Shown here: in pieces, positions 2,994 through 46,466 of the stretch
Position numbering within the stretch: position 1 is the stretch's first letter
Layout: the number at the start of each line of letters is the position of its first letter
DNA from: a bacterium
GTDB taxonomy: Bacteria > Verrucomicrobiota > Kiritimatiellia > RFP12 > UBA1067
Direction of reading: 5' to 3'
Length of the DNA stretch: 47,755 bases
Assembly (NCBI GenBank): GCA_025360845.1
Contig: JANYBJ010000292.1
Span: 1 to 47,755, forward strand
Notes under the pieces: generated by a model
Databases searched by the model: none
Told to the model about the DNA's origin: nothing
Seen by the model: only the letters and a program-made list of their open reading frames with translations
Program-made: the position numbers and the translations under genes

Positions 2994-5402
2994 ATGAAGG
3001 CGATGGTTTTGTTGTCTGTTTTGGGGCTGAGCGTGCATGCGGCTTTCGCGGCGGAGACGGTGTCGTTCGTGTCGGCCAAGCCGGTGTGGCTGGAGGGCCG
3101 GGAGAAAGAAAAGAATGTATTTGTCGGCTTCCGCGCGACCGTAGACGGCAAGGCCGCTGAGAACGCCGTGGTGCGGCTGACCGGCGCGACCATCTGCCGG
3201 CTATTCGTGAACGGCGAGTATCTGGGCTACGGGCCCGCACGCGGCCCGCACGGCTTCTACCGGGTGGATGAGTGGCTGCTCAAGGGGCGCTGTAAGCCCG
3301 GCCCGAACGTCATCGCCATCGAGGTCGCCGGCTACAACGCCAACAGCTACTATTTCATCGACCAGCCCTCCTTTCTTCAGGCTGAAGTCGTCGCGGGCGC
3401 GACCGTGCTCGCCTCCACCGCCGGTGCGGGCTCCGTGTTCGAGGCGCAGGCACTCGAGAGCCGCTTGCAGAAGGTCCAGCGCTACAGTTTCCAGCGTCCC
3501 TTCTCCGAAGCCTACCGCGTGCAGCCCGACTCGTCCGCGTGGCGCACCGGCGGCGCCTTCCAGGCGCAAAAAACGGCGACCCTGCCGGACCGCGCCCTGT
3601 TGCCGCGCTTGTCGCCTTATCCCGCTTTCGCCGTGCGGCCACCGACGCGCGAAGTGTTCGCGGGCACGACCAAGAACAACCCCGAAAAGAAAGTGCAGGC
3701 GGACCGCACGATCAAGGACATCGGCCCGAAACTGGCTGGCTATCCCGAGGCCGAGCTGGTCACCATGCCGTTCTACGACATACAGCGGCTGGAGACGGCG
3801 ACCCAGGAGCGCGTGGACAAGCCCCTCGATGCGCAGGGCCGCCTCGCGCTGGCGGACGGTCAGTTCCGCATCATCGATTTCGGCAAGAACAACTCCGGAT
3901 TTCCCGGCGCGACGTTGCGCTGCGACGCGCCGACGCGCGTGTATTTCGTCTTCGACGAGATCTTGGATCAGGATGACGTGAGCGTGACGCGCCTGAGCTG
4001 CTGCAACGTGGTGAGCTACGAATTGGCCGCGGCGGGCACCTACCGCGTCGAAGCGTTCGAGCCGTACACGCTGCGTTACCTCAAGGTCATCGCCGTCGGC
4101 GCGGCGTGCGAGGTTTCGGATCTGCATCTCCGCGAATACGTGAACTCGGCCACAGAGCGCGCCGTGTTCGCGAGCTCCGACGAGGCGCTCAACCGCATCT
4201 TCGAAGCCGCGCGCTCGACCTTCAAGCAGAACGCGGTGGACGTCTTCACCGACTGCCCGTCCCGCGAGCGCGCGGGCTGGCTCTGCGACAGCTTCTTCAT
4301 CGGACGCGTGGCCGCTGACCTCTGCGGCAACACGCAGATGGAGCGGATGTTCATGCAGAACTTCCTGCTGCCGGCCAAGTTCGAGTATTTGCCCGATGGC
4401 ATGCTGCCGATGTGCTACCCGGCGGATCACAACGACGGCGTCTACATTCCCAACTGGGCCATGTGGTTCGTCATCCAGCTCGACGAGTACCTGCTGCGCA
4501 GCGGCGACCGCGCCACCGTGGACGCGCTCAAGCCGCGCGTGCTGGCGTTGGTGGAGTATTTCAAGAAGTTCAAGAACAGCGACGGGCTGCTCGAAAAGCT
4601 GCCCGGCTGGGTCTTCGTCGAGTGGTCACACGCGAACGATCTGGTGCAGGACGTGAACTACCCCTCCAACATGACCTACGCCGAGGTGTTGTCGTGCGTG
4701 GCGCGGATGTACAGCCTGCCCGCCTTGCAGACCGAGGCCGACGCGATGCGCGAGACCATCCGCAAGCAGTCGTTCGACGGCACCTTCTTTGTGGACAACG
4801 GCAAGCGCCAAGCGGACGGCACGCTGAAGTCGTCCGGCGAGCGCACCGAGACCTGCCAGTACTACGCCTTCTTCTTCCACACCGCCACGCCGCAGACCCA
4901 TGCAGCCTTGTGGGAGACGCTTCGGGCCGACTTCGGGCCGGACCGCCGCCAGACGAAAAAGCATCCGGACATTCACTTCGCCAACGCCTTCATCGGCAAC
5001 TACCTGCGGCTCGAACTGCTCTCGCGGCAGGGGCTGACCGCGCAGATTCTGGACGAGACCAAGGGCTACTTCCTCAAGATGGCTGACCTGACCGGAACCC
5101 TGTGGGAAAACGACAACACCTCGGCGAGCTGCTGCCACGGCTTCGCGAGCCATGTGGAGCGGTTGCTCTACCGCGACGTGCTGGGCATCCGTTCGGTCGA
5201 CGCGGTGAACAAGAAGGTCGCGCTCGGTTTCGCTGACGTTCCTTTGCAGACCTGCTCCGGCTCCATGCCCGTCGGCCCCGACGCGGTCAAGGTCCAGTGG
5301 CGCAAGGCCAACGACACCTTCTTCTACCACGTCGATGCGCCCAAGGGTTTCGCCGTGACCGTGGACTCCTCGCGCCAGCCGCTCAAAGCCGTGCGGGAGT
5401 GA
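2994..5402 (+). CDS. Secreted GH78-like alpha-L-rhamnosidase
   Basis: This 802-residue protein starts at an ATG 5 bp after AAGGAGG. Residues 1-20 form a signal peptide ending in AFA-A, so it is exported. The N-terminal part is beta-rich, with a region near residues 50-110 (RLFVNGEYLGYGPARGP) typical of the accessory jelly-roll domains of this family. From about residue 390 the six-hairpin catalytic domain carries DCPSRERAGW (420-429), the family's signature around the proposed acid Glu, here E425. Members release alpha-L-rhamnose from polysaccharides or glycosides. Substrate and exact specificity are inferred; an uncharacterised relative with another sugar preference is possible. It stands alone, without a visible transporter or regulator nearby. 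Confidence 0.85.
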   Translation: MKAMVLLSVLGLSVHAAFAAETVSFVSAKPVWLEGREKEKNVFVGFRATVDGKAAENAVVRLTGATICRLFVNGEYLGYGPARGPHGFYRVDEWLLKGRCKPGPNVIAIEVAGYNANSYYFIDQPSFLQAEVVAGATVLASTAGAGSVFEAQALESRLQKVQRYSFQRPFSEAYRVQPDSSAWRTGGAFQAQKTATLPDRALLPRLSPYPAFAVRPPTREVFAGTTKNNPEKKVQADRTIKDIGPKLAGYPEAELVTMPFYDIQRLETATQERVDKPLDAQGRLALADGQFRIIDFGKNNSGFPGATLRCDAPTRVYFVFDEILDQDDVSVTRLSCCNVVSYELAAAGTYRVEAFEPYTLRYLKVIAVGAACEVSDLHLREYVNSATERAVFASSDEALNRIFEAARSTFKQNAVDVFTDCPSRERAGWLCDSFFIGRVAADLCGNTQMERMFMQNFLLPAKFEYLPDGMLPMCYPADHNDGVYIPNWAMWFVIQLDEYLLRSGDRATVDALKPRVLALVEYFKKFKNSDGLLEKLPGWVFVEWSHANDLVQDVNYPSNMTYAEVLSCVARMYSLPALQTEADAMRETIRKQSFDGTFFVDNGKRQADGTLKSSGERTETCQYYAFFFHTATPQTHAALWETLRADFGPDRRQTKKHPDIHFANAFIGNYLRLELLSRQGLTAQILDETKGYFLKMADLTGTLWENDNTSASCCHGFASHVERLLYRDVLGIRSVDAVNKKVALGFADVPLQTCSGSMPVGPDAVKVQWRKANDTFFYHVDAPKGFAVTVDSSRQPLKAVRE

Positions 5403-5414
5403 TGATCGATTCGC

Positions 5415-5531
5415 TCATTGCACCGTGATGATAGTGCCTCGGGGGGGCACGGGCGGATTCAGGAGGTAGTCGACGGCCGTGGTCGCATTGCGGGTGAAGA
5501 CGACCTCCGAGAAGGTCCAGCGCGTGATCAT
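5415..5531 (-). CDS. Possible 38-residue ORF with a strong ribosome binding site
   Basis: On the minus strand, a TAA is followed at once by AAGGAGGAG-TTC-ATG, an excellent Shine-Dalgarno, and then 38 codons ending at 5415. The predicted peptide begins MITRWTFSEVVFTRN and ends GTIITVQ. It lies between the end of rnhC (5567) and the end of the convergent GH78 gene (5402). No membrane segment, signal peptide or known motif is visible. It could be a small protein or the remnant of a longer gene that lost its body; nothing assigns a function. Confidence 0.35.
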   Translation of the reverse strand: MITRWTFSEVVFTRNATTAVDYLLNPPVPPRGTIITVQ

Positions 5532-5566: not shown

Positions 5567-6550
5567 TCATTTCTCTTCCTTGGTGCGTGAAACCGCCTGG
5601 CCGTCGGGGCCGAGCGCGGCGCGCGAGGAGCCGCAGGCGGCGAGCACCTGGTCGGCGGTGCGGAAATGACATTTGCTGGTCTTGAGCAGGATCTCTGGGC
5701 CGGACTTTTTGATCAACCCGATCGCGGAGGCTTTGACCTGCTCCGAGGCGCCTTTGTGGGCCTGGAAGCCATAGGTTTCGCCCAGTTTGCCGAGGCCGCG
5801 CAGAAACGCCTCGCGGGCCAGCACGGAGGCGGCGGCGACCGCGATGTCCGACTCCGCCTTGTGGCGCTGTTCGAGTTTGATCGAGCGGCCTTTCTTCATC
5901 AGCGCGCGTTCGATGACCTGCTTGGCGCCGAACTGGTCGGCCACCGCCCGCGGGCAGTCGGGGACGTTTTCCATCAGGTTCTCGATGCAGCGGGCATGGG
6001 CCCAGGCCAGCAGGGTGTTGACGTTGCGCATCTTGGCATAGAGGCGGTTGTAGGCCTCCGGTCCGATGGCGACCATGGAAAAACGTTTGGGGCCGAGGAG
6101 CTGGCGCGTCTTGTTGCCGATGAAGAAGACCGCCTTGTCGGTGAGCTGCTTGCAGTCCTTCACGCCGATGTCTTGCATGGCATGCGCGAGGTCGGGGTCC
6201 ACATAGACCGCGCAGGCGACGAGCGCACCGAAAAAGTCGCCCTTGCCGCTTTCGTCGATGCCCATGTGGGGCGAGACGAGTTCGGGGTTGAGAAGCTCCT
6301 CGTAGCCCACGGTGGCGGCTTGGAGCACGTTGGGCTCGAGGAAAAAGATCACGAAGTCTTGCGCGCCTTTTCCCTGGACCAGGCACTTCCCGCTCTTGTA
6401 AAGGTTAACCACGCAGTCTTGGGCTTCGACCGCGATGAGGGTGTGCGGCACTTCTTTGCGTTTGTAATTGCCCATGTTGAGCAGGATTTTAAGCGACTCC
6501 TGCTGTTCTTTGTCGAGGACAAAGGTGTACGAATTCTTTTTGGTTTCCAT
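5567..6550 (-). CDS. rnhC: Ribonuclease HIII
   Basis: This 327-residue protein begins METKKNSYTF. The reading frame extends upstream to 6721, but that extension lacks family similarity. RNase HIII cuts the RNA strand of RNA-DNA hybrids in the cytoplasm. The N-terminal 90 residues resemble the family's substrate-binding TBP-like domain, and the catalytic part contains GIDESGKGDFFG, which carries the first Asp-Glu pair of the DEDE active site, followed by DCKQLTDK and the stretch HKAESDIAVAAASVLAR. No clear Shine-Dalgarno precedes the chosen ATG. It is transcribed divergently from the secreted hypothetical gene at 6675. Confidence 0.9.
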   Translation of the reverse strand: METKKNSYTFVLDKEQQESLKILLNMGNYKRKEVPHTLIAVEAQDCVVNLYKSGKCLVQGKGAQDFVIFFLEPNVLQAATVGYEELLNPELVSPHMGIDESGKGDFFGALVACAVYVDPDLAHAMQDIGVKDCKQLTDKAVFFIGNKTRQLLGPKRFSMVAIGPEAYNRLYAKMRNVNTLLAWAHARCIENLMENVPDCPRAVADQFGAKQVIERALMKKGRSIKLEQRHKAESDIAVAAASVLAREAFLRGLGKLGETYGFQAHKGASEQVKASAIGLIKKSGPEILLKTSKCHFRTADQVLAACGSSRAALGPDGQAVSRTKEEK

Positions 6551-6674: not shown

Positions 6675-7673
6675 ATGAAATCTCGAATCAGTCTGTTCGT
6701 TCTGGCAGTGTGTATCGCCACGGGGGCACATGCGCAGATTAAGATTCAGCATTTTCCCGCAGATACGAAGTGGGCGCTGCACCTGGACCTCAAGGCGCTG
6801 AACGAGTCTCAGATGGGCCTGTTCATCCGGCAGTCGCTGGATGAGAACGCGATGCGCGGACTGGTGTCGCTCCAAGCCATGAGCGGGATCAACTTGACGA
6901 ACGACGTCGATTCCCTGGTGGTCTGCGGCAAGGGCAATGTTCAGACGGGGGGCGTGATGTACGCCTACGGGCGGTTCGACGTCCAGAAGCTGACGGCTTT
7001 CGCGGGCGCGGCCAAAGAGTATCAGAACAAGGCGTTCGGCGAGCGCAGCCTGTTGAGTTGGAGTGACAGGGGCAAGCGTACCAGCCTCTGCTTTATCGAC
7101 CCCACTTTGGTGGTGTTGGCGCAAGAGGAAGGCTTGGTGCAGGAGGCTGTGGGGATCATCGACGGCAAGGTGGCGGGCATGGGAAAAGACGGGCCTTTCG
7201 GCAAGGTGCTCGCGCACAATAAGGACTGCTTTTTCGCGTTGCAGGTCAACAATCTGGCGGACTTCTCAGGGACGAACCCGCAACTTCAAATGTTCAAGCA
7301 GGCCGAGGCCGTGATGCTGGAGATCGGCCAGATGGCTGGAACGAACGGTCTGGAGCTTGCGTTGGCCATCAAGGCGGCGACACCGGAGTCGGCGCAGCAG
7401 ATGAATCAGGCGGCTGTGGGGCTGCAGGCGCTTTTCCAGCTGCAGGCGGCTCAGAACCCCGAGGTGGCCGCGGTCGCGCAGGGCGTCAAGGTCAGCCTCC
7501 AGGACAACTTCGTGACCGTTAACCTCAAGATGACTGAGGAAATGCTGAAGAAGCAGGTTCAGGCCCGCGTCGAGCAGCGCAAGGCGGCGCAGGTGCGCAG
7601 GGCCGAACGGAAGGCAGAGGCCGATCAGGCGGCGCAGCAGGAACAGAAGAAGCCTGAGAGGCCCGCGTTCTGA
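6675..7673 (+). CDS. Secreted hypothetical protein with charged C-terminal tail
   Basis: This 332-residue protein is not assigned to a named family. The start at 6675 is chosen because GGAG lies 6 bp upstream and a clear signal peptide (MKSRISLFVLAVCIATGAHA) follows directly; the open frame extends further upstream without such support. The mature protein opens with PADTKWALHLDLKAL, a pattern I associate with uncharacterised exported proteins of PVC bacteria. The last 50 residues are rich in Lys, Arg, Glu, Gln and Ala (QVRRAERKAEADQAAQQ) and should form a helix or coiled coil. Location is periplasm or exterior by inference. No neighbour hints at its job. Confidence 0.7.
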   Translation: MKSRISLFVLAVCIATGAHAQIKIQHFPADTKWALHLDLKALNESQMGLFIRQSLDENAMRGLVSLQAMSGINLTNDVDSLVVCGKGNVQTGGVMYAYGRFDVQKLTAFAGAAKEYQNKAFGERSLLSWSDRGKRTSLCFIDPTLVVLAQEEGLVQEAVGIIDGKVAGMGKDGPFGKVLAHNKDCFFALQVNNLADFSGTNPQLQMFKQAEAVMLEIGQMAGTNGLELALAIKAATPESAQQMNQAAVGLQALFQLQAAQNPEVAAVAQGVKVSLQDNFVTVNLKMTEEMLKKQVQARVEQRKAAQVRRAERKAEADQAAQQEQKKPERPAF

Positions 7674-7968
7674 GCTGTTGGCGACGTCAGCGGCGGATGA
7701 TGCTAACCGGGTATTCACGCCGGCCTTGTGCTTCTCTAACAGAAGCGTTTTACGCTGATCAGGAAACACGCGAGCCGGAGCCAAAAAAAGAAAAATCGCA
7801 TTTTTCTGCTTTTGCGCTTGAAGTATCGCGCAAAAAAGTCAAAACTAACCACTTTTAATTGCCCCAAAAATGGGCATTTTTTCACCGGATGACGGTGTCC
7901 GGCAACTGTCGGCTGAGACGGGAACACAGTCACCGACGCGAAGAGAAGGCCACAAGGAGTCCAAGATC
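7674..7968 (+). promoter_or_regulatory. fusA upstream region with two stem-loops, one terminator-like
   Basis: A perfect 8-bp dyad TTTTGCGC / GCGCAAAA lies at 7810-7817 and 7828-7835. It is followed by TGCCC-caaaaat-GGGCA and six Ts at 7860-7882, which looks like an intrinsic terminator on the plus strand. The fusA start codon is 87 bp further on, so the hairpin could end the upstream transcript or act as an attenuator in a fusA leader. The AAGGAG Shine-Dalgarno for fusA is at 7953-7958. Confidence 0.5.
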
Positions 7969-10053
7969 ATGCCCAGAACCATTCCGCTAGAGAGAGTACG
8001 CAACATCGGCATCATGGCGCACATCGATGCAGGCAAGACCACCTGTAGCGAGCGCATTCTCTTTTATTCCGGCAAGAATTATAAGATCGGCGAGGTACAC
8101 GAAGGTGCCGCGACGATGGACTACATGGTGCAGGAGCAGGAGCGTGGCATCACCATCACCTCGGCGGCCACGGCGGTCTCCTGGCGCGATCACCAGATCA
8201 GCCTGATCGATACCCCCGGACATGTGGACTTCACGGCTGAGGTGGAGCGCTCGCTGCGTGTGCTGGACGGCGCGGTCGCACTCTTCTGCGCGGTGGGCGG
8301 CGTGCAGCCCCAGACCGAGCAGGTGTGGCGTCAGAGCGAGAAGTACGAAGTGCCCAAGCTCTGCATGGTCAATAAGATGGACCGTATCGGCGCAAACTTT
8401 TTCACCGTGATCGACGAGATCAAAGAGACGCTGGGCGGCAATCCGGTGATGATGGTTTACCCGATGGGCGCGGCTGAAACCTTCTGCGGCGTGATCGATC
8501 TGTTGACGATGAAAGCGCTGACGTTCGACGAGGAGTCGCGGGGCGTCAAGGTGATCGAGAGTGAGATCCCCGAGGAGTATCGCGAGGAGTGCGAGCGTCT
8601 CCACATCGAGATGATGGAGAAGGCGGCCGAGCAGGACGAAGCGCTGATGAACAAGTACTTCGAGACCGGCTCGCTGACCAACGAAGAGATCATGCAGGGC
8701 ATCCGCAAGGGCACGATTGATCGCACGCTGGTCCCGGCTTACTGCGGTACGGCGTTCAAGAACAAGGGCGTGCAGCCGCTGCTCGACGGCGTGATCAATT
8801 ACCTGCCGTCGCCCCTCGATGTGGGTTCGGTGCATGCCGCGGACAATCCGGGCCTGATCCGCCGTCCTGACGACAAAGAACCGTTTGCCGGTCTGGCGTT
8901 CAAGATCCTTTCCGACAAGCACATGGGCAAGATCACCTTCGTGCGCATCTATTCCGGCACGTTGAAGGTGGGCGATCCGATTTACAACAGCACGATGGAT
9001 GCGGAAGCCCGCATCGGCCGTCTGTTCCGCATGCACGCGAACCGCCAGGAGGCGCTGGAAGAGGCCTACGCGGGTGACATCATCGCGGTGGTCGGTCTCT
9101 CCAAGACCCGCACCGGCGATACGATCTGCGATCCCAAGAAGCCGATTGTGCTGGAGTCGATCGAGTTCCCGGCGCCGGTGATCTCGATCTCGATCCGCCC
9201 GTCGTCGCGCGGCGACAACGAGAAGCTGGGCAGCGCGCTGCACTCGCTGGCGCAGGAAGATCCGACCTTCATCGTTAAGTTCGATCCCGAAACGAGCGAG
9301 ACGATCATCTCGGGCATGGGCGAACTGCATCTCGAAATCATCGTGGACCGCCTGCGCCGCGAACATAATGTGGAGTGCGAAGTGGGCAAGCCCGAGGTCG
9401 CCTACCGCGAGACCATCCGCCACATGGTGGACGGCGAGTACAAGCACGTCAAGCAGTCCGGCGGCCGCGGCCAGTACGCGCACGTCTGTTTGCGCCTCGA
9501 GCCGCAGGAGCCCGGACACGGGTTCTCCTTCGTCAACGAGGTCAAGGGCGGCGTGATCCCGAACGAGTATATCCCCGCGGTCGAGAAGGGCGTCATCAAG
9601 GCCATGGAGAGCGGCCCGTGCGGCGGCTTCCCCGTGGTGGATGTCAAGGTCGTCGTGCATTACGGTTCGTACCACGAGGTCGACTCCAACGAGTTCGCGT
9701 TCGTGGAGTGCGCGCGCCAGTGCTTTAAGAACCTCTTCCTCAAAGGCAACCCGCTGCTGCTGGAGCCGATCATGAGCGTCGAGGTGGCCGTGCCCGAGGA
9801 GTACATGGGAACCGCAACCGGTTCGATCTGTTCGCGCCGCGGACGCGTCGAGGGCATGGACGACAAGGCGGGCACCAAGCTGGTGCGCGGCTTCGTTCCG
9901 CTCGGCGAGATGTTCGGCTACTCCAGCGCGATCCGTACGGTCACGCAGGGACGCGCCACCTTCACGATGTCGTTCGAACGTTACGAGGGCGTGCCCTTCG
10001 AACTTTCCGAGACGATCATCGAGAAGCGCAAGAAGGAAGGCAAAGTGCGGTAA
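7969..10053 (+). CDS. fusA: Elongation factor G
   Basis: This 694-residue protein has the usual EF-G length. The ATG at 7969 follows AAGGAG by 10 bp. The GTPase motifs are all present: AHIDAGKTT (P-loop), [11 protein letters not shown] (switch I region), DTPGHVDF and NKMDRIGA. Later domains include [10 protein letters not shown] and [12 protein letters not shown] in domain IV. It drives ribosomal translocation and, with RRF, ribosome recycling. It is not next to rpsL, rpsG or tuf, where the main copy usually sits, so it could be the only copy in a rearranged genome or a second, specialised EF-G. A strong intrinsic terminator follows at 10069-10102. Confidence 0.95.
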
Positions 10054-10068
10054 GCACTCGCCGGACAC

Positions 10069-10102
10069 AAAAAAAGGCTGCCCGTACTGGGCGGCCTTTT
10101 TT
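10069..10102 (+). terminator. Intrinsic terminator after fusA
   Basis: The stem GGCTGCCC (10076-10083) pairs with GGGCGGCC (10089-10096) with one G-U pair and a 5-nt loop, followed by six Ts. A run of As precedes the stem, so it could work on both strands. Confidence 0.88.
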
Positions 10103-10107
10103 ATTGC

Positions 10108-10147
10108 AAAATGAAAAGGTGCAGACGCGGAGTAACGCCTGCACCTT
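10108..10147 (-). terminator. Probable terminator after the Hsp20 gene (minus strand)
   Basis: AAGGTGCAG (10116-10124) and CTGCACCTT (10139-10147) form a perfect 9-bp stem. Read on the minus strand, the stem is followed by a T-rich stretch (TTTTCATTTT), as expected for termination of the Hsp20 transcript. Confidence 0.65.
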
Positions 10148-10253
10148 AGACTGAAACTGGACTACGGCACGTCTGCCGTTTTCTCAACTTCAACCTTCCA
10201 GATTTCCAGTCTCTCATGAATTATCGTTCCCTCCTTTCTTTCAACCGGGCGCG

Positions 10254-10766
10254 TTAGGCCGCAATGACGTCGATCCGCTTGTGAGTGGGTTTACCCTGCT
10301 CGGTCTTCGTCAGCGTCAGTGTGAGCACGCCCTTTTTGAATGTGGCTTTCACTTTGTCACGATCAACACCCTCAGGCAGATGGATCGAGCGGCGGAATTC
10401 CCCGTAACTCACTTCCGAGACGAAACAGTCGCGTTTCTTCTCCTCATGTTCACGCTTCTTTTCGCCGTGAACCGTGAGTTCGCTCCCATCCAAACTGACC
10501 TCGATGTCCTTCTCGTCCATGCCAGGCAACTCGGCCTTGACGCAGAATTCCTCGTCTGTCTCCGATACTTCAAGGCTCGGGGTTTCTTCAAACCAACGCT
10601 CACCTCTCCGGAGGAGAGCGCCGCGCCCGAATCCCATACCGAAGTCCTCGAAGAAGTCTTCGAACAGATGACTCACTTCCCGTTCAAACAGGCCTAATGA
10701 GGTGTCTTCACGCCGAGAGGGCACCACTTCCTCGCCTCTTTTCCTCCATGGGATCAGATCTTTCAT
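10254..10766 (-). CDS. Hsp20/alpha-crystallin small heat-shock protein
   Basis: This 170-residue protein starts MKDLIPWRKR, with AAGGAGG 7 bp upstream of the ATG; the frame continues upstream but without a better start. The N-terminal 65 residues are variable and Phe-rich. The alpha-crystallin domain follows, with ELPGMDEKDIEVSLDG and the C-terminal GVLTLTLTK motif. Small heat-shock proteins hold unfolding proteins in an ATP-independent way in the cytoplasm. It is a single-gene unit with its own terminator. No CIRCE-type operator was seen upstream. Confidence 0.93.
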   Translation of the reverse strand: MKDLIPWRKRGEEVVPSRREDTSLGLFEREVSHLFEDFFEDFGMGFGRGALLRRGERWFEETPSLEVSETDEEFCVKAELPGMDEKDIEVSLDGSELTVHGEKKREHEEKKRDCFVSEVSYGEFRRSIHLPEGVDRDKVKATFKKGVLTLTLTKTEQGKPTHKRIDVIAA

Positions 10767-10999
10767 AATGGTTCCTCCTTTCAAACCTCCGTGTCTCGAT
10801 GACACGTGGATAGAAATACTACCATTTAACTAGCATTAAGAGTGCCAGTCATCGGTATATTATGTACAACATGCTATTATGCAACAAGTTAGATAGTCAT
10901 AATAAAAATCGTGAAATGGCAGAACGCGACATTAGTTCACAGTCAAGGATATCCCCCTGGTGACAATTTGACTCTCTTGCGCGTGTGGCTCTGCCGAGG

Positions 11000-11635
11000 T
11001 TACGTACGTAGATGCCGCTCCAGCCAGGCCACGATCTCGCGGCCGACGTCGAGCTTGCTCTGCAGCGGCAGGGCGGTCGGCGGTTCGTTTGCGGAGAGGA
11101 ACGTCACGCGGTTGGTGTCGACTGCGAAGCCCGCGTCCGGCTGAGTCACGTCATTCGCGACGATCAGGTCGAGCCCCTTCGACACCAGCTTGCGCTGCGC
11201 CTCAACGAGGGGATCGCCGGTTTCGGCTGCGAAACCCACGAAGGTCCGCTGCTCCTTGAGCGGACGGATCGTCGTTAAAATGTCGGGGTTGGGTTCCAGT
11301 TCGATGACGGGCCTCATCTCCGACTTCTTGAGTTTGACGGGGCTGGCCTGTTTGAAACGCCAGTCCGCCACAGCGGCACACATGACGAGCGCGGTGTGAA
11401 AGGGTAGGAGCCTCTGGACCGCGGCCAGCATTTCAAGCGCGCTCGTCACATCCACCCGGATCACGCCTGACGGGGTCGGCAACGCCACCGGCCCGGCGAC
11501 CAGCGTCACGGTGTGGCCGCGTTCGGCGGCGGCCTGCGCGACGGCGAATCCCATCTTGCCGGTGGAGCGGTTGCTAAGGAAGCGCACGGGGTCAAGATAC
11601 TCGCGGGTTGGGCCTGCGGTGACGAGGAGTTTCAT
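11000..11635 (-). CDS. coaB: Phosphopantothenate--cysteine ligase, stand-alone CoaB domain
   Basis: This 211-residue protein starts [21 protein letters not shown] lies upstream of the chosen ATG. The opening and the [12 protein letters not shown] stretch are hallmarks of the CoaB half of the Dfp/CoaBC protein, followed by CAAVADWR and the KLKK segment. CoaB joins cysteine to 4'-phosphopantothenate with nucleotide hydrolysis in coenzyme A synthesis. Most bacteria fuse it behind CoaC (the decarboxylase, about 180 residues); here no CoaC domain precedes it in any frame. The decarboxylase should therefore be encoded elsewhere. The gene is isolated. Confidence 0.87.
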
Positions 11636-34520: not shown

Positions 34521-34564
34521 CTGTCAATTCAGGGTTGACAGGGTGGCAATCATTTGGTTATTAT
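34521..34564 (+). promoter_or_regulatory. Promoter and dyads between crcB and arsR
   Basis: TTGACA (34535-34540) and TATTAT (34559-34564) are 18 bp apart, a good promoter for the arsR operon. TTGACA is the right arm of the perfect dyad CTGTCAA-ttcaggg-TTGACAG (34521-34541); the left arm gives a TTGACA in the opposite direction. A second dyad, TTTGG / CCAAA, spans 34553-34570 over the -10 box. Either could be the ArsR operator. Confidence 0.55.
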
Positions 34565-34591
34565 GCCAAAAAACAAAACGAAAGAGACGGT

Positions 34592-34897
34592 ATGACCAAG
34601 CACGAGAAAACGGTATTGGCGGCGAAAACGAAGGTTTTGAAGGCGCTGGCGCACCCGGCCCGGCTGTGGATGGTGGAGCAGTTGGAGAGCGGAGAGCGCT
34701 GCGTGTGCGAGTTGGTCGACGGGTTGGAGTTGGACTTCTCGACCGTCTCCAAACACCTGCTGGTGCTGAAAAATGCGGGCGTGGTGGCGGACGACAAGCG
34801 CGGCAAGCAGGTCTTCTATTCCCTGAAGGTGCCGTGCGTCCTAAACTTCATGCACTGCGTCGAGGCGGTGATCAAGGGAGAAGGAGAAGGTTTTTAG
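34592..34897 (+). CDS. ArsR-family transcriptional repressor (copy 1)
   Basis: This 101-residue winged-helix protein has ALAHPARLWMVEQL in the second helix and DFSTVSKHLLVLKNAGVV as the recognition helix and wing. C37 and C39 (ERCVCEL) sit where ArsR-type sensors bind arsenite or a related thiophile, so a metalloid or thiol-reactive signal is likely. It is the first gene of a plus-strand unit with DUF6132, a Cys-rich protein, a methyltransferase and an RND efflux pair, and presumably represses it. It is divergent from crcB. The start at 34592 is chosen by homology; the Shine-Dalgarno AGAGACGG is weak. Confidence 0.88.
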   Translation: MTKHEKTVLAAKTKVLKALAHPARLWMVEQLESGERCVCELVDGLELDFSTVSKHLLVLKNAGVVADDKRGKQVFYSLKVPCVLNFMHCVEAVIKGEGEGF

Positions 34898-34959
34898 GCG
34901 AAGGCGGTTAGGCCGTCAGGCAGACGCGTTGACTCGGAAAGGAACAAGGACTGGGTGTC

Positions 34960-35124
34960 ATGATTATTCGAGTGGTTCTCGGTGCCGTCGTCGGCGGCAT
35001 TCTCGGTTACGGAGTGTGCCGATTCATCGGGTGCTCCTCTGGCACCTGTCCTATCACGTCCAACCCGTGGTTAAGCACGATCTTTGGCATGGCCCTTGGT
35101 GCGCTGCTGTCGAGGGCGGCCTGA
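34960..35124 (+). CDS. DUF6132 small membrane protein
   Basis: This 54-residue protein is preceded by AAGGA about 9 bp from the ATG. Two hydrophobic helices (IIRVVLGAVVGGILGYGV and WLSTIFGMALGALL) flank a loop with CSSGTCPITSNP, the hallmark of DUF6132 proteins. Three Cys are present. Its function is unknown; relatives are found beside thiol or metal resistance genes. Here it sits between the ArsR gene and a Cys-rich protein, which supports a role in a thiophile or redox response. Confidence 0.8.
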   Translation: MIIRVVLGAVVGGILGYGVCRFIGCSSGTCPITSNPWLSTIFGMALGALLSRAA

Positions 35125-35166: not shown

Positions 35167-35358
35167 ATGAAACTGACTGATGCTGAGTTCTGCGAGTCGC
35201 ATTGTCCGGTCTGCACCAACGCCCGGAGGGGCAATAAGATTGCCGCCTTTCTGCAGAAGCTTGAAATGGCGCTGACGGGCGGCGGTTGTCCCGCAGGCCG
35301 CGCGCGCCAGAAGAAGTATGGCGTGAAACCGAATGAAAAGCGGGGAAAGCAGTCATGA
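35167..35358 (+). CDS. Cys-rich 63-residue hypothetical protein
   Basis: No family is recognised with confidence. The sequence has a C-X3-C-X2-C cluster (FCESHCPVCTNARRGNK) and a second motif, GGGCPAGRARQKKYG; four Cys in all, with many Lys and Arg. It has no signal peptide or membrane helix, so it should be cytoplasmic. The Cys arrangement would suit metal or Fe-S binding or sulfur transfer. AAGGAAA precedes the ATG at 35167. Its TGA overlaps the ATG of the methyltransferase (ATGA), which implies translational coupling. Confidence 0.75.
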   Translation: MKLTDAEFCESHCPVCTNARRGNKIAAFLQKLEMALTGGGCPAGRARQKKYGVKPNEKRGKQS

Positions 35359-36131
35359 AAACGAACCTAGACGACACCTGCACACGTTTCGACGACAAGG
35401 CCGCGGAGTGGGACGCGAACCCCGCCCGGGTGGCGCTCGCGCGGGCGGTTGTGGAGGCGATCCGTACGGCCGTGCCGCTGAGGCCTGACATGGCGGCGAT
35501 GGATTTCGGCGCGGGCACCGGCCTGGTTTCGCTCGGGCTGCTGCCCGACGTGGGCGAGGTCACGGCTGTGGAAGCTTCAGGCGAAATGCTGCGCGTGCTC
35601 GGCGAGAAGGTGAAGGCCCTGGGGGTGTCCAACCTGCGTACGCTCAAGTGCGACGTGGGGGAAGCGGCGCTGCCGCGCGGGTGCTTCGACCTGATCGTCA
35701 GCTCGATGGTGCTGCATCACCTGCCCGATGTGCCGTTGGTGCTGAGGCATTTGCTGCCTGCGCTCCGGCCCGGCGGCTGGATCGCGCTGGCGGATCTGGA
35801 TTCTGAGGACGGGACTTTCCACGCCGACCCGACGGGCATTTTTCATCACGGCTTTGAGCGTGCTACCGTCTGCCGCTGGCTGGAAGAGTCTGGGTTCGCG
35901 GATGCCTCGTCACGCGAGGCCTACCGCATCACGCGCCCGGGCGCAGACGGTGTGATGCGCACCTACCCGGTCTTTCTGGTGACCGCTCGGGCACTGCAAC
36001 TTAAAGTGCTGGCGGATCAGGGGCTGGTCGCCACATGCAAGGAGGGCACGGTCAAACGCTGCTCGATCCGCAACAAGGATTTTCTGAAACTGTTCACCTG
36101 TCTGCATCGGCATCTGACCGAGGTGCTGTAG
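35355..36131 (+). CDS. Class I SAM methyltransferase fused to the C-terminal part of an ArsR protein
   Basis: This protein has 258 residues. Residues 1 to about 212 form a UbiE-like methyltransferase: MDFGAGTGLVSLGLLP is motif I, FDLIVSSMVLHHLPD is motif IV, and LRPGGWIALADLD follows. The last 45 residues (from L214) match residues 57-101 of the ArsR protein encoded at 46161 at 41 of 45 positions, and the DNA is about 90 percent identical by eye over 138 bp. The tail holds part of the recognition helix, the wing and the last helix, so it cannot form a full DNA-binding domain. The methyltransferase seems complete without it. The methyl acceptor is unknown; the ArsR-led operon suggests a metalloid or thiol compound. 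Confidence 0.85.
   Translation: MKTNLDDTCTRFDDKAAEWDANPARVALARAVVEAIRTAVPLRPDMAAMDFGAGTGLVSLGLLPDVGEVTAVEASGEMLRVLGEKVKALGVSNLRTLKCDVGEAALPRGCFDLIVSSMVLHHLPDVPLVLRHLLPALRPGGWIALADLDSEDGTFHADPTGIFHHGFERATVCRWLEESGFADASSREAYRITRPGADGVMRTYPVFLVTARALQLKVLADQGLVATCKEGTVKRCSIRNKDFLKLFTCLHRHLTEVL
35994..36131 (+). repeat. 138-bp segment duplicated from an arsR gene (copy at 46329-46466)
   Basis: About 14 differences over the 135 coding bases were counted by eye against 46329-46466, and the reading frame is the same. It makes the 3' end of the methyltransferase gene. Confidence 0.9.
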
Positions 36132-36208
36132 GAGTGGCTTAAAGCCGAAGTCATTGGAGAGGACAGTCATTGACCTCTTGTGTGTGCGGTGATACGGTAG
36201 AGGCAAAT

Positions 36209-39200
36209 ATGGAAACGTTCGAACAGAGCGAACCGCAGGGCCTTGTAGTCAGGGTCGCGCGTGTCTTCCTGCAGGGGCCGCAGTCGGTGCTGCTGATTGC
36301 GGCGGCGCTGCTGATGGGCATCGTGGCGCTGCTGGCCACTCCGCAGGAGGAGGAGCCGCAGATCGTCGTGCCCATGGCGGATGTGTTTGTCGATGTGCCG
36401 GGACGTACGCCGCGCGAGGTCGAGGAACTGGTGACGCGCCCGCTTGAACGTATCCTGTGGCAGGTCACGGGCGTGGAGCACATCTATTCGATCAGCCGTC
36501 ACGACCAGTCGGTGGTGACGGTGCGGTTCAAAGTGGGAGAGGATCGCGAACGATCGATCATCAAGCTCCGCGACCAGATCGAGAGCCACCGTGACCTCGT
36601 GCCGTCGCCGGTGGCGGGGTGGATCGTCAAGCCGTCGCAGATCGACGATGTTGCGGTGGTGGCACTGACGCTCTTTTCGCCGCAGCGCAATCCCTTTGAG
36701 TTGCGCCGCATCGGGGAAGAGGTGAAGGCGCGGCTCGACGCGCTGCCCGATCTTTCGCAGAGCGAGATCATCGGCGGGCTGCCTCGTGAGATCCGGATCG
36801 AGGCGGCTTCCGAGGCGCTTGCATCTCGGCGCGTCTGTATGGCCGATATCCGTGGTGCCTTGTCGGGTTCAGATCCGGGCGGCGACGCGGGCACGGTCTA
36901 CGAAAAAGGTCTGCAACTCGGCCTGCGCCCGCGCTCGCCGTTGGACTCGGCGGCGGCGGTGCGAGAGACGGTCCTCCGTTCCGACGCGGGCCGCGTGGTG
37001 CGCGTGGGCGATGTGGCCGCGGTGACGGACGGGCCGGCCGAGCCGGATTCGTATCTCCACATCGGCTTCGGGCCGGTGGACGCGGCCCATGCGGACGCGG
37101 GGCGGCTGCCGGCGGTGACGCTGTCCTTCGCGAAGAAAAAAGGGGCCAACGCGCTCAAGGTGTCGCAGGCGGTCATCGCCGCGGCTGAGTCGCTGAAAGG
37201 CTCGCTGATCCCTGCGGACGTGACGGTGCGCGTGACGCGCGACACGGGGCGGACATCGCAGGAGAAGGTCGGCGAGTTGCTGGACGCCATGGTTTTTGCA
37301 ATCATCACCGTGATCGCGCTGATCGCGGTGACGATGGGGTGGCGCGAGAGCATCGTGGTGGGGCTGTCGGTGCCGATCTCGTTCGCCTTGGCGCTGTTCC
37401 TGAACTACCTGGCCGGCTACTCCATCAACCGCGTGACGCTCTTCGCGCTGATTCTGAGCCTGGGCCTGGTGGTGGACGATCCGATCAGCAATGTGGACAA
37501 CATCCAGCGCCACCTGCGCATGGGTCTTCAGAGGCCGCTGCTGGCGGTGCAGTGGGCGGTGGACGAGATGGCGATCCCGGTGGTGATGTCCGCGCTGACG
37601 ATCATCATCTGCTTCATCCCGATGTTCTACATCACAGGCATGATGGGGCCTTACATGCGGCCGATGGCGGTGAACGTGCCGCTGACGATTTTCTTTTCGG
37701 CGGTCAGCGCGATCACCTTTGTGCCGTGGCTGACGCACAAGCTCTTGCACAAGAAGGTCGCGGCCGCTCCGCAGAGCGCCGAGGATGTCACACCGCGCTG
37801 GATCCGTGCGGGTTACAGGGCCGTTCTGTCGCCCTTCCTGACGCGACGGCGGGCGTGGATGCTGCTGGGGGTTGTGGCCGCGCTCTTCGCGGGGAGTCTG
37901 CTGCTGCCTTTGACGGGGCTCGTGCCTTTGAAGATGCTGCCGTTCGATAACAAGGACGAGCTGCAACTGGTGGTGGATCTGCCGGAGGGGTCGACGCTGG
38001 AAGAGACCGACCGGGCGTGTCAGGCGCTGGAAGCGTACCTAAGCACCGTGAACGAGGTGCGCGATTACGAGACCTACACGGGGCGTAACTCGCCCCTGGA
38101 CTTCAACGGGCTGGTGCGTCACTACGGATTCCGTCGACTGCCGAACCAAGCGGACATCCGCGTCAACCTCGCGGGCAAGCATGAGCGCTCACAGCAGAGC
38201 CACGCCATCGCGCTGCGGCTCCGCGACGACCTCACGCGCATCGCCTCCACGTACCGCGCGGTGCTGAGCATCGTCGAGGTGCCTCCGGGTCCGCCGGTGC
38301 TGAGCACGATCACGGCTGAGGTGCTCGGACCGCCTGATGCGACGTACGACCAGATCATCGACGCGGCGAAGATGCTTGAGGCGCACATGGCGGCGTACGA
38401 CGCGCATCATATCGCGCAGGTTGACGATTATTCCGAAACGCCGCGCGACCGGCTGGCGCTGGTGGTCGACCGCGACAAGGCGGCGTTGCACGGACTCACG
38501 CCTGCGGACGTTGCGCAGGCGGTGGCTGCGGCCGGCGGGCTGCGGCCTTTGGGTGTTCTGCACGCGGCTCACGCCCGAGAGCCCGTTCAAGTGCGGCTCT
38601 TGTTGCCGCTGGCGGAACGGAGCGATTCGACGCGGCTGGAGCAACTCTGGCTGCGTACGCCGCAGGGCTCGCAGGTGCAGGTGCGCGAGATCGCGCGGTT
38701 CGAGAAAGAGGCGGTGGCTCAGCCGGTCTACCGCAAGGATCTTGAGCGGGTTGTGTTTGTGACCGCCGAGGCGGTGGGCCGCGCTCCGGGCGAGATGATT
38801 TTGGGATTGCAGAGCAGGCTGAAGAGAGCGCCACTACCGCACGGGGCCACGGTGCGCTGGAGCGGCGAGGGCGAATGGCAGATCACGGTGGACGTGTTCC
38901 GCGACCTCGGCATCGCCTTCGGCGTGGCGCTGCTCGGCATCTACCTGCTCCTGGTCTTGCAGACCGGCAGCTTCCTGATGCCGGGCGTGATGATGCTGGC
39001 GATCCCGCTGACGCTGATCGGCATCATGCCGGGGTTCGCGCTGCTCAACGCCGGGTCGGGCTCGGTGGGCGGCTATCCGGAGCCGGTCTTCTTTACGGCC
39101 ACAGCCATGATCGGCATGATCGCGCTGGGCGGCATCGTGATCCGCAACAGCATCGTGCTCATCGAGTTCATCCACGAGGCGATCCGGCAGGGTAAGCCGC

Positions 39201-39421
39201 TGCGGCAGGCGCTGCTCGAGAGCGGCGCGGTGCGTTTCCGCCCGATCGCGCTGACCGCGCTGACCGCATTGCTCAGCGCGTGGCCGATCACGCTCGACCC
39301 GATCTTTTCGGGGTTGGCCTGGGCGCTGATCTTCGGCCTGGTGGCGAGCACCGTTTTCACGCTGCTGATCATCCCGACTGTATTTTTCTTGCTGAAGGAG
39401 AGACACCATGAGGCTCAATAA
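36209..39421 (+). CDS. RND efflux permease (AcrB-like)
   Basis: This protein has about 1070 residues, the usual RND inner-membrane pump length. The ATG at 36209 follows AGAGG; a TTG at 36170 also has a good site (GGAGAGGA) and would add 13 residues. The N-terminal anchor helix is near residues 25-45, followed by the periplasmic porter domain (VPGRTPREVEELVTRPLE), helices with GLVVDDPISNVDN carrying the proton-relay Asp pair, a second porter half and the final helices (GIVIRNSIVLIEF). It uses proton motive force to pump substrates outward. The fusion protein gene overlaps its end by 14 bp. Its substrate is unknown; membership of the ArsR operon hints at a toxic, thiol-reactive compound. Confidence 0.92.
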   Translation: METFEQSEPQGLVVRVARVFLQGPQSVLLIAAALLMGIVALLATPQEEEPQIVVPMADVFVDVPGRTPREVEELVTRPLERILWQVTGVEHIYSISRHDQSVVTVRFKVGEDRERSIIKLRDQIESHRDLVPSPVAGWIVKPSQIDDVAVVALTLFSPQRNPFELRRIGEEVKARLDALPDLSQSEIIGGLPREIRIEAASEALASRRVCMADIRGALSGSDPGGDAGTVYEKGLQLGLRPRSPLDSAAAVRETVLRSDAGRVVRVGDVAAVTDGPAEPDSYLHIGFGPVDAAHADAGRLPAVTLSFAKKKGANALKVSQAVIAAAESLKGSLIPADVTVRVTRDTGRTSQEKVGELLDAMVFAIITVIALIAVTMGWRESIVVGLSVPISFALALFLNYLAGYSINRVTLFALILSLGLVVDDPISNVDNIQRHLRMGLQRPLLAVQWAVDEMAIPVVMSALTIIICFIPMFYITGMMGPYMRPMAVNVPLTIFFSAVSAITFVPWLTHKLLHKKVAAAPQSAEDVTPRWIRAGYRAVLSPFLTRRRAWMLLGVVAALFAGSLLLPLTGLVPLKMLPFDNKDELQLVVDLPEGSTLEETDRACQALEAYLSTVNEVRDYETYTGRNSPLDFNGLVRHYGFRRLPNQADIRVNLAGKHERSQQSHAIALRLRDDLTRIASTYRAVLSIVEVPPGPPVLSTITAEVLGPPDATYDQIIDAAKMLEAHMAAYDAHHIAQVDDYSETPRDRLALVVDRDKAALHGLTPADVAQAVAAAGGLRPLGVLHAAHAREPVQVRLLLPLAERSDSTRLEQLWLRTPQGSQVQVREIARFEKEAVAQPVYRKDLERVVFVTAEAVGRAPGEMILGLQSRLKRAPLPHGATVRWSGEGEWQITVDVFRDLGIAFGVALLGIYLLLVLQTGSFLMPGVMMLAIPLTLIGIMPGFALLNAGSGSVGGYPEPVFFTATAMIGMIALGGIVIRNSIVLIEFIHEAIRQGKPLRQALLESGAVRFRPIALTALTALLSAWPITLDPIFSGLAWALIFGLVASTVFTLLIIPTVFFLLKERHHEAQ

Positions 39422-40550
39422 ACGGATCTCGAAATTTCTGGGGTCGGCCGCTGGGCTGATCGTCATCGTCTGGGTGATCGTGTGGCAAGTCGGCGGGTGC
39501 GGCAAGCGCATCAAGCCGGGGCGGGCGACGGAGGCCGCAGCCGTGCCTGCGGTGCGGACTCTGACAGTCGAGGCCACGAACGTTCCGGTCGTCTACACGG
39601 CGGTCGGCACGATCCGCAGCCGGACCGAGGTTCAACTCGCGGCGCGGATCGTCGGGCGGATACTGACGGTGACGGTGCGTACGGGTGACCGCATTAAAGC
39701 AGGTGACGCGCCGGTGACGCTGGACGACGCCGAGTTGCGGACGGGGGTGAGTCAGGCCAAAGAGCGTGTGGCAGGGGCGCAGGCGGGACTGTTGGCGGCG
39801 GCGGAGCGGAGCGTGCAGGCGCGGTCTGCTTTGGATCTCGCCACGGCCGAGGTGGATAGAGCCCGTAAACTGGCGGCGCAGAAAATGACGTCGCAGCAGG
39901 CGCTGGACGCGGCTGAAGACGCATACCGGCAAACGGTGTCGCGCATGGCGCAGGCCGAGCAGGGTCAACTCGCGGCGCAGGCCGATGCGCGTGCGGCGTC
40001 AGAGGCGCAGCATCAGGCCGAGACCGTCGTCGGTTATGCGTCCGTCGTCTGTCCGATGGACGGTGTGGTATCGGAGCGGCTTGCTGATCCGGGCGACCTC
40101 GCGACGCCGGGAAAAACGCTGTTGAGCATTTTCGATCCGACGCGGCTGCTGCTGGAGGCCCCGATCCGCGAGGGGCTGGTGACGCGGGTGAAGATCGGCG
40201 ACAAGCTGCCGGTGACACTCGGCGCATTGGGACGGAAACTCGAGGCAGAGGTCCGCGAGATCGTGCCCTCGGTCGATGCGGGCAGCCGCACGTTTTTGGC
40301 GAAACTCTGCCTGCCGCCGACCGAAGGCGTGATGCCGGGCATGTTCGGCACGGTGTCGCTGAACCTAGGCGAACGGCAGGCGCTGCTCATGCCCGAGGCC
40401 GCGCTGGTGCGCGCGGGACAGCTCGAATATGTGAGCGTGGTGGCGGGCGGGCGGACCACGCGCGTGCTGGTGCGGACCGCTCCTGCGGATGCGGGCCGCG
40501 TGGAAATTCTCGCGGGCTTGAAGGCCGGCGATGCGGTTGCCTTGCCGTAA
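39408..40550 (+). CDS. RND membrane-fusion (periplasmic adaptor) protein
   Basis: This 380-residue protein begins MRLNKRISKFLGSAAG; AAGGAGAG lies within the permease gene before the ATG. An N-terminal helix with a following Cys (GGCGKR) suggests a membrane anchor, possibly a lipoprotein. The lipoyl half AARIVGRILTVTVRTGDRIKAGD and its partner ASVVCPMDGVVSERLADPGD flank a long Ala/Gln-rich coiled hairpin (about residues 120-205), followed by the beta-barrel domain. It links the permease to an outer-membrane channel. Most operons place this gene before the permease; here it comes after, and no TolC-type channel follows. Confidence 0.92.
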   Translation: MRLNKRISKFLGSAAGLIVIVWVIVWQVGGCGKRIKPGRATEAAAVPAVRTLTVEATNVPVVYTAVGTIRSRTEVQLAARIVGRILTVTVRTGDRIKAGDAPVTLDDAELRTGVSQAKERVAGAQAGLLAAAERSVQARSALDLATAEVDRARKLAAQKMTSQQALDAAEDAYRQTVSRMAQAEQGQLAAQADARAASEAQHQAETVVGYASVVCPMDGVVSERLADPGDLATPGKTLLSIFDPTRLLLEAPIREGLVTRVKIGDKLPVTLGALGRKLEAEVREIVPSVDAGSRTFLAKLCLPPTEGVMPGMFGTVSLNLGERQALLMPEAALVRAGQLEYVSVVAGGRTTRVLVRTAPADAGRVEILAGLKAGDAVALP

Positions 40551-40657
40551 GACAGAGGGCGCTGCCGATTCTTGAAAGAGCGCGTAGCGAGCATGAAATC
40601 TGTCTGCCAGTTGATGAACATTGAAAGCCGATTCTGGGAAAGTTTAAGGAGGACGAC

Positions 40658-40826
40658 ATGAACAAAGTGACTCGGCGAAGCATGATCACCGCAGTCGGCG
40701 CGGCGAGCGCAGGGGCTTGCGTGTGCGGACGGCACGCTCAAAAAGGGCCTGACCAAGAAGTCGCTCAGCCGCTACACCGCCGCGCTCGATGCGGCCGACG
40801 GTAAGCGTTTGCTCATCACCTGCTGA
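40658..40826 (+). pseudogene. Remnant of a Tat-exported protein gene
   Basis: TAAGGAGG stands before an ATG that opens MNKVTRRSMITAVGAASAG, a twin-arginine signal peptide. After about 25 codons the frame is lost: the original frame stops at 40804, while another frame carries ADGTLKKGLTKKSLSRY and ends ADGKRLLITC at 40826. The tail resembles the end of small Rieske-type proteins, so the simplest reading is a Tat-anchored Fe-S protein gene that lost its middle. That family assignment is weak. Confidence 0.5.
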
Positions 40827-41110
40827 GGGCGGCGGGACAGTGGCGAACCGGCACGATTGAAGAGTTGACGTGTGCTTCCTATCCCTTATCCGCAGGGGGT
40901 GTTTGCTCGGACGTTTCGGCGCGTTGCCGATCATCGCCGATCTGGCAGACAACCTGGTGGAGGAAGTTGTCCATGCCGGAAGATGAGCGTTGCAAGTTGT
41001 TGTTGCGGCGCTAAAGCATTAACTTGGTCAGCGTCTTTTGCTCACCCTAAGAGCGCCAAGGTGAGGCGGGGCTTTTCCCGCATACCGATACGCGCTCGCG
41101 CTCCCTGGCC

Positions 41111-41140
41111 TTGACGTTTCCAAGAGGTTTTGTGTATTGT
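41111..41140 (+). promoter_or_regulatory. Promoter-like pair before the XhoI-type methylase gene
   Basis: TTGACG (41111-41116) and TATTGT (41135-41140) are 18 bp apart, about 70 bp before the methylase ATG. It lies in the only AT-rich stretch of this gap. Confidence 0.35.
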
Positions 41141-45997: not shown

Positions 45998-46098
45998 GAT
46001 TCTTCCTCCGTAAGCCTTACGTGTCTTAAAAATTAAAATATTACAATATTCTGATACTAGAAGCAACCACCATTTGTCAGAGGATTTTGGGAACGATA

Positions 46099-46160: not shown

Positions 46161-46466
46161 ATGAAAAGCCAAGAGAAGCTGACTTCGGAACAAACGGTGC
46201 GCGGCGCCCGCGTGCTGCAGGCGCTGGCACATCCCCTTCGGCTGGGCATCATGCAGGCGCTCGCCGAGTCGACGCTGACCTGTTCGGAGCTTCAGGCGCT
46301 GCTGGGATGCCCCCAGCCGACGCTCTCGCTGCAGCTCAAAGTGCTGGTGGATCAGGGGCTGGTCGCCACATGCAAGGAGGGCACTGTAAAAAGCTGCTCA
46401 ATCCGCAACAGGGATTTTCTAAAGCTCTTCACCTGTCTGCGCCGGCATCTGACCGAGGTGTTGTGA
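46161..46466 (+). CDS. ArsR-family transcriptional repressor (copy 2)
   Basis: This 101-residue winged-helix protein has LQALAHPLRLGIMQAL, then CSELQALLGCPQPTLSLQLK with the recognition helix. Five Cys (C41, C50, C71, C79, C92) are present, with none in the CVC arrangement of copy 1. Divergent orientation from the sulfur reductase gene, with a dyad between them, suggests a persulfide or sulfide sensor of the SqrR/BigR kind, though the ligand is inferred. Its last 45 codons are nearly the same as the tail of the methyltransferase at 35355. It is followed by an 89-bp gap with nothing recognisable and then by trmB in the opposite direction. Confidence 0.88.
   Translation: MKSQEKLTSEQTVRGARVLQALAHPLRLGIMQALAESTLTCSELQALLGCPQPTLSLQLKVLVDQGLVATCKEGTVKSCSIRNRDFLKLFTCLRRHLTEVL
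46329..46466 (+). repeat. 138-bp segment shared with the methyltransferase gene (copy at 35994-36131)
   Basis: Here the segment lies in its natural place as the 3' part of an intact arsR gene, so this copy is the likely type of the donor. About 90 percent identity by eye. Confidence 0.9.

Follow-up and report, generated by a model that had tools for sequence, protein, structure and literature searches.

The locus examined here raises the question of why a methyltransferase gene ends in the C-terminal half of an ArsR repressor, from which gene this half was derived, and whether it serves the protein that carries it. The gene is an open reading frame of 258 aa (35355-36131), composed of a methyltransferase body and an ArsR-derived tail, and is located in the window, which is the whole stretch of 47,755 nucleotides analyzed and corresponds to the entire contig 213 of the genome of a groundwater bacterium (5.17 Mb in 326 contigs). 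The features are listed in Table 1, in which G001 is the sole genome of the same genus that was compared (Verrucomicrobia bacterium nzgw607, JAHFSX01). As described below, the tail is very probably a read-through scar of a deletion between the methyltransferase gene and an adjoining arsR gene, and is most likely functionless.

Table 1. Features of the fusion locus and of the second arsR locus in the window.
Feature	Position	Strand	Basis
Sigma-70-like promoter TTGACA-18-TATTAT, before ArsR1	34535-34564	+	Consensus scan, 11/12 matches, 0.2 expected
ArsR1, ArsR/SmtB repressor, CVCEL motif	34592-34897	+	Pfam HTH_5, NCBIfam HTH_metalloreg
DUF6132 small membrane protein	34960-35124	+	Pfam PF19628
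Small Cys-rich protein, 63 aa, overlapping the methyltransferase start	35167-35358	+	No Pfam/NCBIfam match; 87% to the protein encoded ahead of MT2 in G001
Complete class I SAM-dependent methyltransferase, residues 1-213	35355-35993	+	Pfam Methyltransf_11 etc.; homologue ends; ω; pLDDT
arsR remnant, codons 57-101 and stop, read in frame as methyltransferase tail	35994-36131	+	41/45 aa ArsR2, 42/45 aa G001 arsR
Promoter-like element TTGACC ... GATACG, before RND, conserved in G001	36170-36196	+	By-eye comparison, below consensus-scan threshold
RND efflux pump permease	36209-39421	+	Pfam ACR_tran
RND periplasmic adaptor (MFP)	39408-40550	+	TIGR01730 above cut-off
ArsR2, intact paralogue of the remnant	46161-46466	+	NCBIfam HTH_metalloreg; 91% aa identity to G001 arsR

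The tail, which begins at base 35994 (residue 214) and includes the stop codon, aligned ungapped and in register with 46329-46466 in the gene of ArsR2, and was identical to residues 57-101 of ArsR2 at 41 of the 45 positions and at 122 of the 138 bases (88%, 16 differences), with the similarity dropping sharply to background at both edges. The match had an E value of 1.4e-20 in a search across the whole genome and, hence, is not due to chance. This second locus (46161-46466) was the only other place in the genome resembling the tail, and the methyltransferase was also present as one copy. The tail starts at ArsR residue L57, which lies within the recognition helix, and a Pfam search found no helix-turn-helix in the fusion protein, bearing out the claims of the earlier note that the tail is derived from ArsR and is unable to bind DNA in the manner of ArsR. 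Three Cys are kept in it, namely, C71, C79, and C92 of ArsR, which correspond to residues 228, 236, and 249 of the fusion protein. The C-terminus of ArsR1, the repressor of the operon itself, was confirmed to be unlike the tail, as had been stated, and the DNA identity, previously put at about 90 percent, was found to be 88% with the ArsR2 gene at 46161, while the arsR next to the methyltransferase gene of G001 gave 92.7% over 137 bases.

The methyltransferase body gave a match to Methyltransf_11 with an E value of 3.5e-17, and its DFGAGTG motif and final core strand, which are conserved in homologues, place it among the class I SAM-dependent methyltransferases. No curated subfamily was matched by the body above its cut-off, the curated ArsM family (NF008823) giving 35.2 bits against a cut-off of 263. 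At E <= 1e-12, the fusion protein had matches in 47 of the 346 class genomes, a few of which were matched solely via the ArsR part. All of the 30 homologues read in detail, which are from the same class, end at one column, directly behind the final strand of the core (YPVFLVTARA-), without any tail; since they end at the junction, the methyltransferase is complete before the tail, as the earlier note had proposed. Longer frames in some homologues (e.g., 351 aa in G057) proved to be the result of upstream reading, with the stop at the usual point. The methyltransferase family is likely to have a role in metalloid resistance, because its members in relatives adjoin genes for ACR3, ArsC-like proteins, heavy-metal ATPases, ArsP, or RND proteins.

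We compared the locus with that of G001, in which a YeeE/rhodanese gene, a methyltransferase gene (MT1), arsR, a thioredoxin gene, a gene without a family match, the RND and MFP genes, a gene for a small Cys protein, and a second methyltransferase gene (MT2) are arranged in this order and in one direction. MT1 is tailless, and its stop codon (5491-5493 of locus L012) is followed by 120 nt and then by a full arsR (5614-5919). The fusion body at 35382-35983 aligned to 4876-5477, within MT1, and the tail at 35994-36130 to 5782-5918, within the C-terminal half of arsR (92.7%); the synteny resumed at 36168, with 36168-40549 aligning to 6719-11097, the RND-MFP part (86.9% DNA identity). The unfused neighbors are, thus, present in the same order in G001, as is the case for a gene fusion born by deletion. 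G001 is, therefore, a relative in which the methyltransferase lacks the tail and an entire arsR comes after it, which is the finding that the earlier note had set against its own reading; the fusion in the contig still stands as real, and it is reduced to a deletion scar. The two methyltransferase copies of G001 (4846-5493 and 11326-11967 of L012) are about 90% identical in DNA and flank the arsR-RND-MFP block. The small Cys protein gene is also present there in two copies, and duplication or conversion within the locus is possible; the 63-aa protein itself is conserved ahead of methyltransferase genes in the genus, with 87% identity in G001.

The earlier note had regarded the second ArsR (46161), or a close relative, as the donor, which would mean that the 3' half of its gene was copied behind the methyltransferase. 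The 41 identical residues are in agreement with this, and likelihood did not separate the topologies, the three groupings of the tail in the tree being within 0.2 lnL. However, G001 has a full arsR exactly behind MT1, and the tail differs from this gene at 11 of the 138 bases (42 of the 45 aa being the same), as against 16 for ArsR2, whereas the flanks of ArsR2 beyond the gene are without similarity; donorship of ArsR2 is, hence, extremely unlikely. Over the same stretch, ArsR2 and the G001 arsR differed at 14 bases. At the 4-fold sites, the tail differed from the G001 arsR at 3 of 23 and from ArsR2 at 6 of 22, a contrast that was not significant by the Fisher test. As likelihood leaves the arsR copies unseparated, the assignment of the donor is based on gene order and distance, and above all on gene order. 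The source of the tail was very probably the arsR adjoining the methyltransferase and not the copy 10 kb away, because of the tandem of methyltransferase, stop, and arsR in G001 and the smaller distance of the tail from its arsR. It was also considered that a tailless methyltransferase might have been misjoined to an arsR in this metagenome-assembled contig, given that the assembly is a draft of 326 contigs and that the contig departs from G001 at ~34944, 35993, and 36131-36168. Such an assembly artefact is highly improbable, since no other arsR in the genome is identical to the tail (even that at 46161 differing at 16 bases), the genome contains the methyltransferase gene only once and a single complete arsR of the ArsR2 kind, and the frame is intact. 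Furthermore, there is no long exact word common to both sides of the junction, which, together with a tail that is no copy of other sequence in the genome, makes a repeat-driven misjoin unlikely.

The possibility that the tail is functional, which the earlier note had raised in terms of pairing with ArsR subunits or metal binding, is improbable. In this case, the wing and last helix would pair with ArsR2 or ArsR1, tying the methyltransferase to the repressor or sequestering it, or the three Cys would bind a metalloid for the enzyme. The last helix of the ArsR family is part of the dimer interface, and this helix and the three Cys are kept in the tail. In addition, an ArsR/SmtB regulator of Thermus thermophilus binds an arsenite methyltransferase (PMC8649762), and working ArsR-methyltransferase fusions exist (PMC10190100). 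However, the tail does not make up a complete ArsR fold unit, whereas the known fusions carry the whole ArsR in front. The selection analysis gave an ω of 0.73-0.84 for the tail branch against 0.076 for the background, and ω = 1 fitted the tail equally well; one ratio was weakly disfavored against two (2dlnL = 3.1, p of about 0.08), and the codon changes were not significantly different by the Fisher test (p = 0.26), the test being weak because the tail has 45 codons. For the methyltransferase body in the same lineage, ω was 0.076, and ω = 1 was rejected (2dlnL = 17.5), both the tail and body branches also covering the time before the fusion. These values indicate that the body is kept by selection, and the tail, for which the sample is small, could have evolved by neutral drift. 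In an AlphaFold2 model built with 33 sequences, most of the core had a pLDDT of >90, as against 49-60 for the tail, in which helix formation was limited to a short first helix and the last one. The same fusion was found in none of the other genomes searched (346 from the class and 388 from the phylum) and is, thus, known from one genome; a scan of genome contigs matched the G001 record and distant homologues, of which the G001 record was read for a tail. A 235-aa open frame in G555, considered as a second fusion, turned out to be a normal complete ArsR preceded by open sequence. The two comparisons that the earlier note had in mind, of selection on the ArsR copies and of other proteins with the same tail, thus gave a tail ω near 1, no further fusion, and no support for a function, and the proposal of pairing or metal binding is left unsupported by a fusion that is known from one genome, evolves compatibly with neutrality, and is poorly folded over its tail in the model. 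A more specific form of the proposal, in which the tail is a docking helix that pairs with intact ArsR2, so that the abundance or cargo state of the enzyme tunes the repressor and the half-repressor acts as a dimerization tag, is very unlikely.

The tail would, therefore, be best understood as a deletion scar, with the following history. In the ancestor of the genus, a full arsR would have stood between the methyltransferase gene and the genes of the RND pump, the order that G001 still shows. In the lineage of the window, an in-frame deletion of ~290 bp would have taken the stop codon of the methyltransferase, the intergenic promoter/operator of arsR, and arsR codons 1-56, after which translation of the methyltransferase would run to the stop codon of arsR. 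A block of the type CAAATATTNCAATTGACAAAT precedes the arsR start in G001 and recurs in closely similar form in G004, in G005, and before ArsR2; this promoter/operator block is absent ahead of the remnant in the window. The methyltransferase body presumably works as before, judging from the selection pattern, and the tail would be tolerated. Against a simple scar, the frame is open and all three Cys are kept in the tail. The window also lacks the thioredoxin gene of G001 and the gene after it, which calls for either a second event or an insertion in G001. Moreover, the small Cys protein is encoded directly before the methyltransferase in the window, but before MT2, not MT1, in G001, so that the locus may have undergone recombination between MT1 and MT2.

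The operon would also have exchanged its regulator, with ArsR1 and its own promoter now at the head and the old arsR decayed. The promoter before ArsR1 (34535-34564) is now the nearest one upstream of the operon. The orthologue of ArsR1 in G001 (G001:C72:88048, 87%) is on another contig, where an ArsP-like permease follows it, and the window resembles this locus from 34533 to 34943. The synteny with G001 switches from arsR1-ArsP (C72) to DUF6132/RND (C83) between 34943 and 34946. The regulator and its promoter, thus, appear to have been placed before another operon in either the lineage of the window or that of G001. The loss of arsR could have been tolerable because the intact paralogue at 46161 remains and ArsR1 with its promoter heads the operon. 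Behind MFP, 40600-41140 has no long convincing open reading frame and resembles decayed gene pieces; a start at 40659 reads MNKVTRRSMITAVGAASAG and soon loses sense.

ArsR2 is encoded divergently from a CoA-disulfide-reductase-like/rhodanese/TusA/DsrE2 gene. In G001, the CoA-disulfide-reductase-like gene has no adjoining arsR, though a similar AT-rich block precedes it, and the synteny ends at 46076. One way to account for the presence of ArsR2 beside this gene in the window and its absence there in G001 is duplication followed by the loss of different copies. The nearest solved structure to ArsR2 is that of BigR (3pqj). ArsR2 was not assigned to the sulfide-sensing repressors of the BigR/SqrR type, as it scored 41.2 bits against 155 for NF040642 and the Cys pair was unmatched: the aligned BigR Cys, which we take to be the sensing one, falls on Gln32 of ArsR2. 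ArsR2-type repressors in relatives adjoin sulfur or thiol genes, being next to a metallo-beta-lactamase/rhodanese/YgaP-like gene in G004 (L007 1336-3029) and thioredoxin in G001 (L012 5614-6326). There are hints in these gene neighborhoods that the signal of ArsR2-type repressors may be reactive sulfur or thiol stress.

This locus illustrates clearly how one regulator of an operon may be replaced by another while half of the lost one stays readable on its neighbor, and it also warns that a domain piece in common need not mean a function in common. With respect to known systems, ArsRM of Brevundimonas sp. M20, which consists of ArsR helices alpha1-alpha5, a linker (111-121), and a methyltransferase (122-320) and binds its own promoter, is similar in that ArsR sequence and a SAM-dependent methyltransferase are in one polypeptide (PMC10190100). 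It has the complete ArsR in front, whereas the protein in the window has the methyltransferase in front and the last 45 ArsR residues behind, with no usable helix-turn-helix; the latter is not a fusion of the ArsRM type, the helix-turn-helix being incomplete and the domain order reversed, nor is its tail an ArsR/SmtB repressor, the recognition helix being incomplete. In Thermus thermophilus HB27, TtArsM and TtSmtB bind each other and both shift the promoter (PMC8649762), so that a methyltransferase and an ArsR/SmtB regulator are likewise linked in one stress response. These are, however, two separate proteins whose binding was measured, whereas the fusion in the window is known from sequence; binding of the tail to ArsR2, if true, would be a new way of linking an enzyme to its repressor. 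The tandem locus of G001 has the same genes and order, with 81-93% DNA identity over the aligned pieces, and differs in that the methyltransferase has its own stop, the intergenic promoter/operator and whole arsR are intact, and thioredoxin and one further gene are present. In gene fusion by deletion between co-directional neighbors, the stop of the upstream gene and the start of the downstream gene are lost in frame and the stop of the second gene is reused. The in-frame loss and the reuse of the second stop are also seen in the window, but, unlike in the general class, half of the second gene was kept and, thus, no second working domain was gained. Taken together, the protein in the window is best classed as a fusion of genes by deletion, with a tail that is probably a scar.
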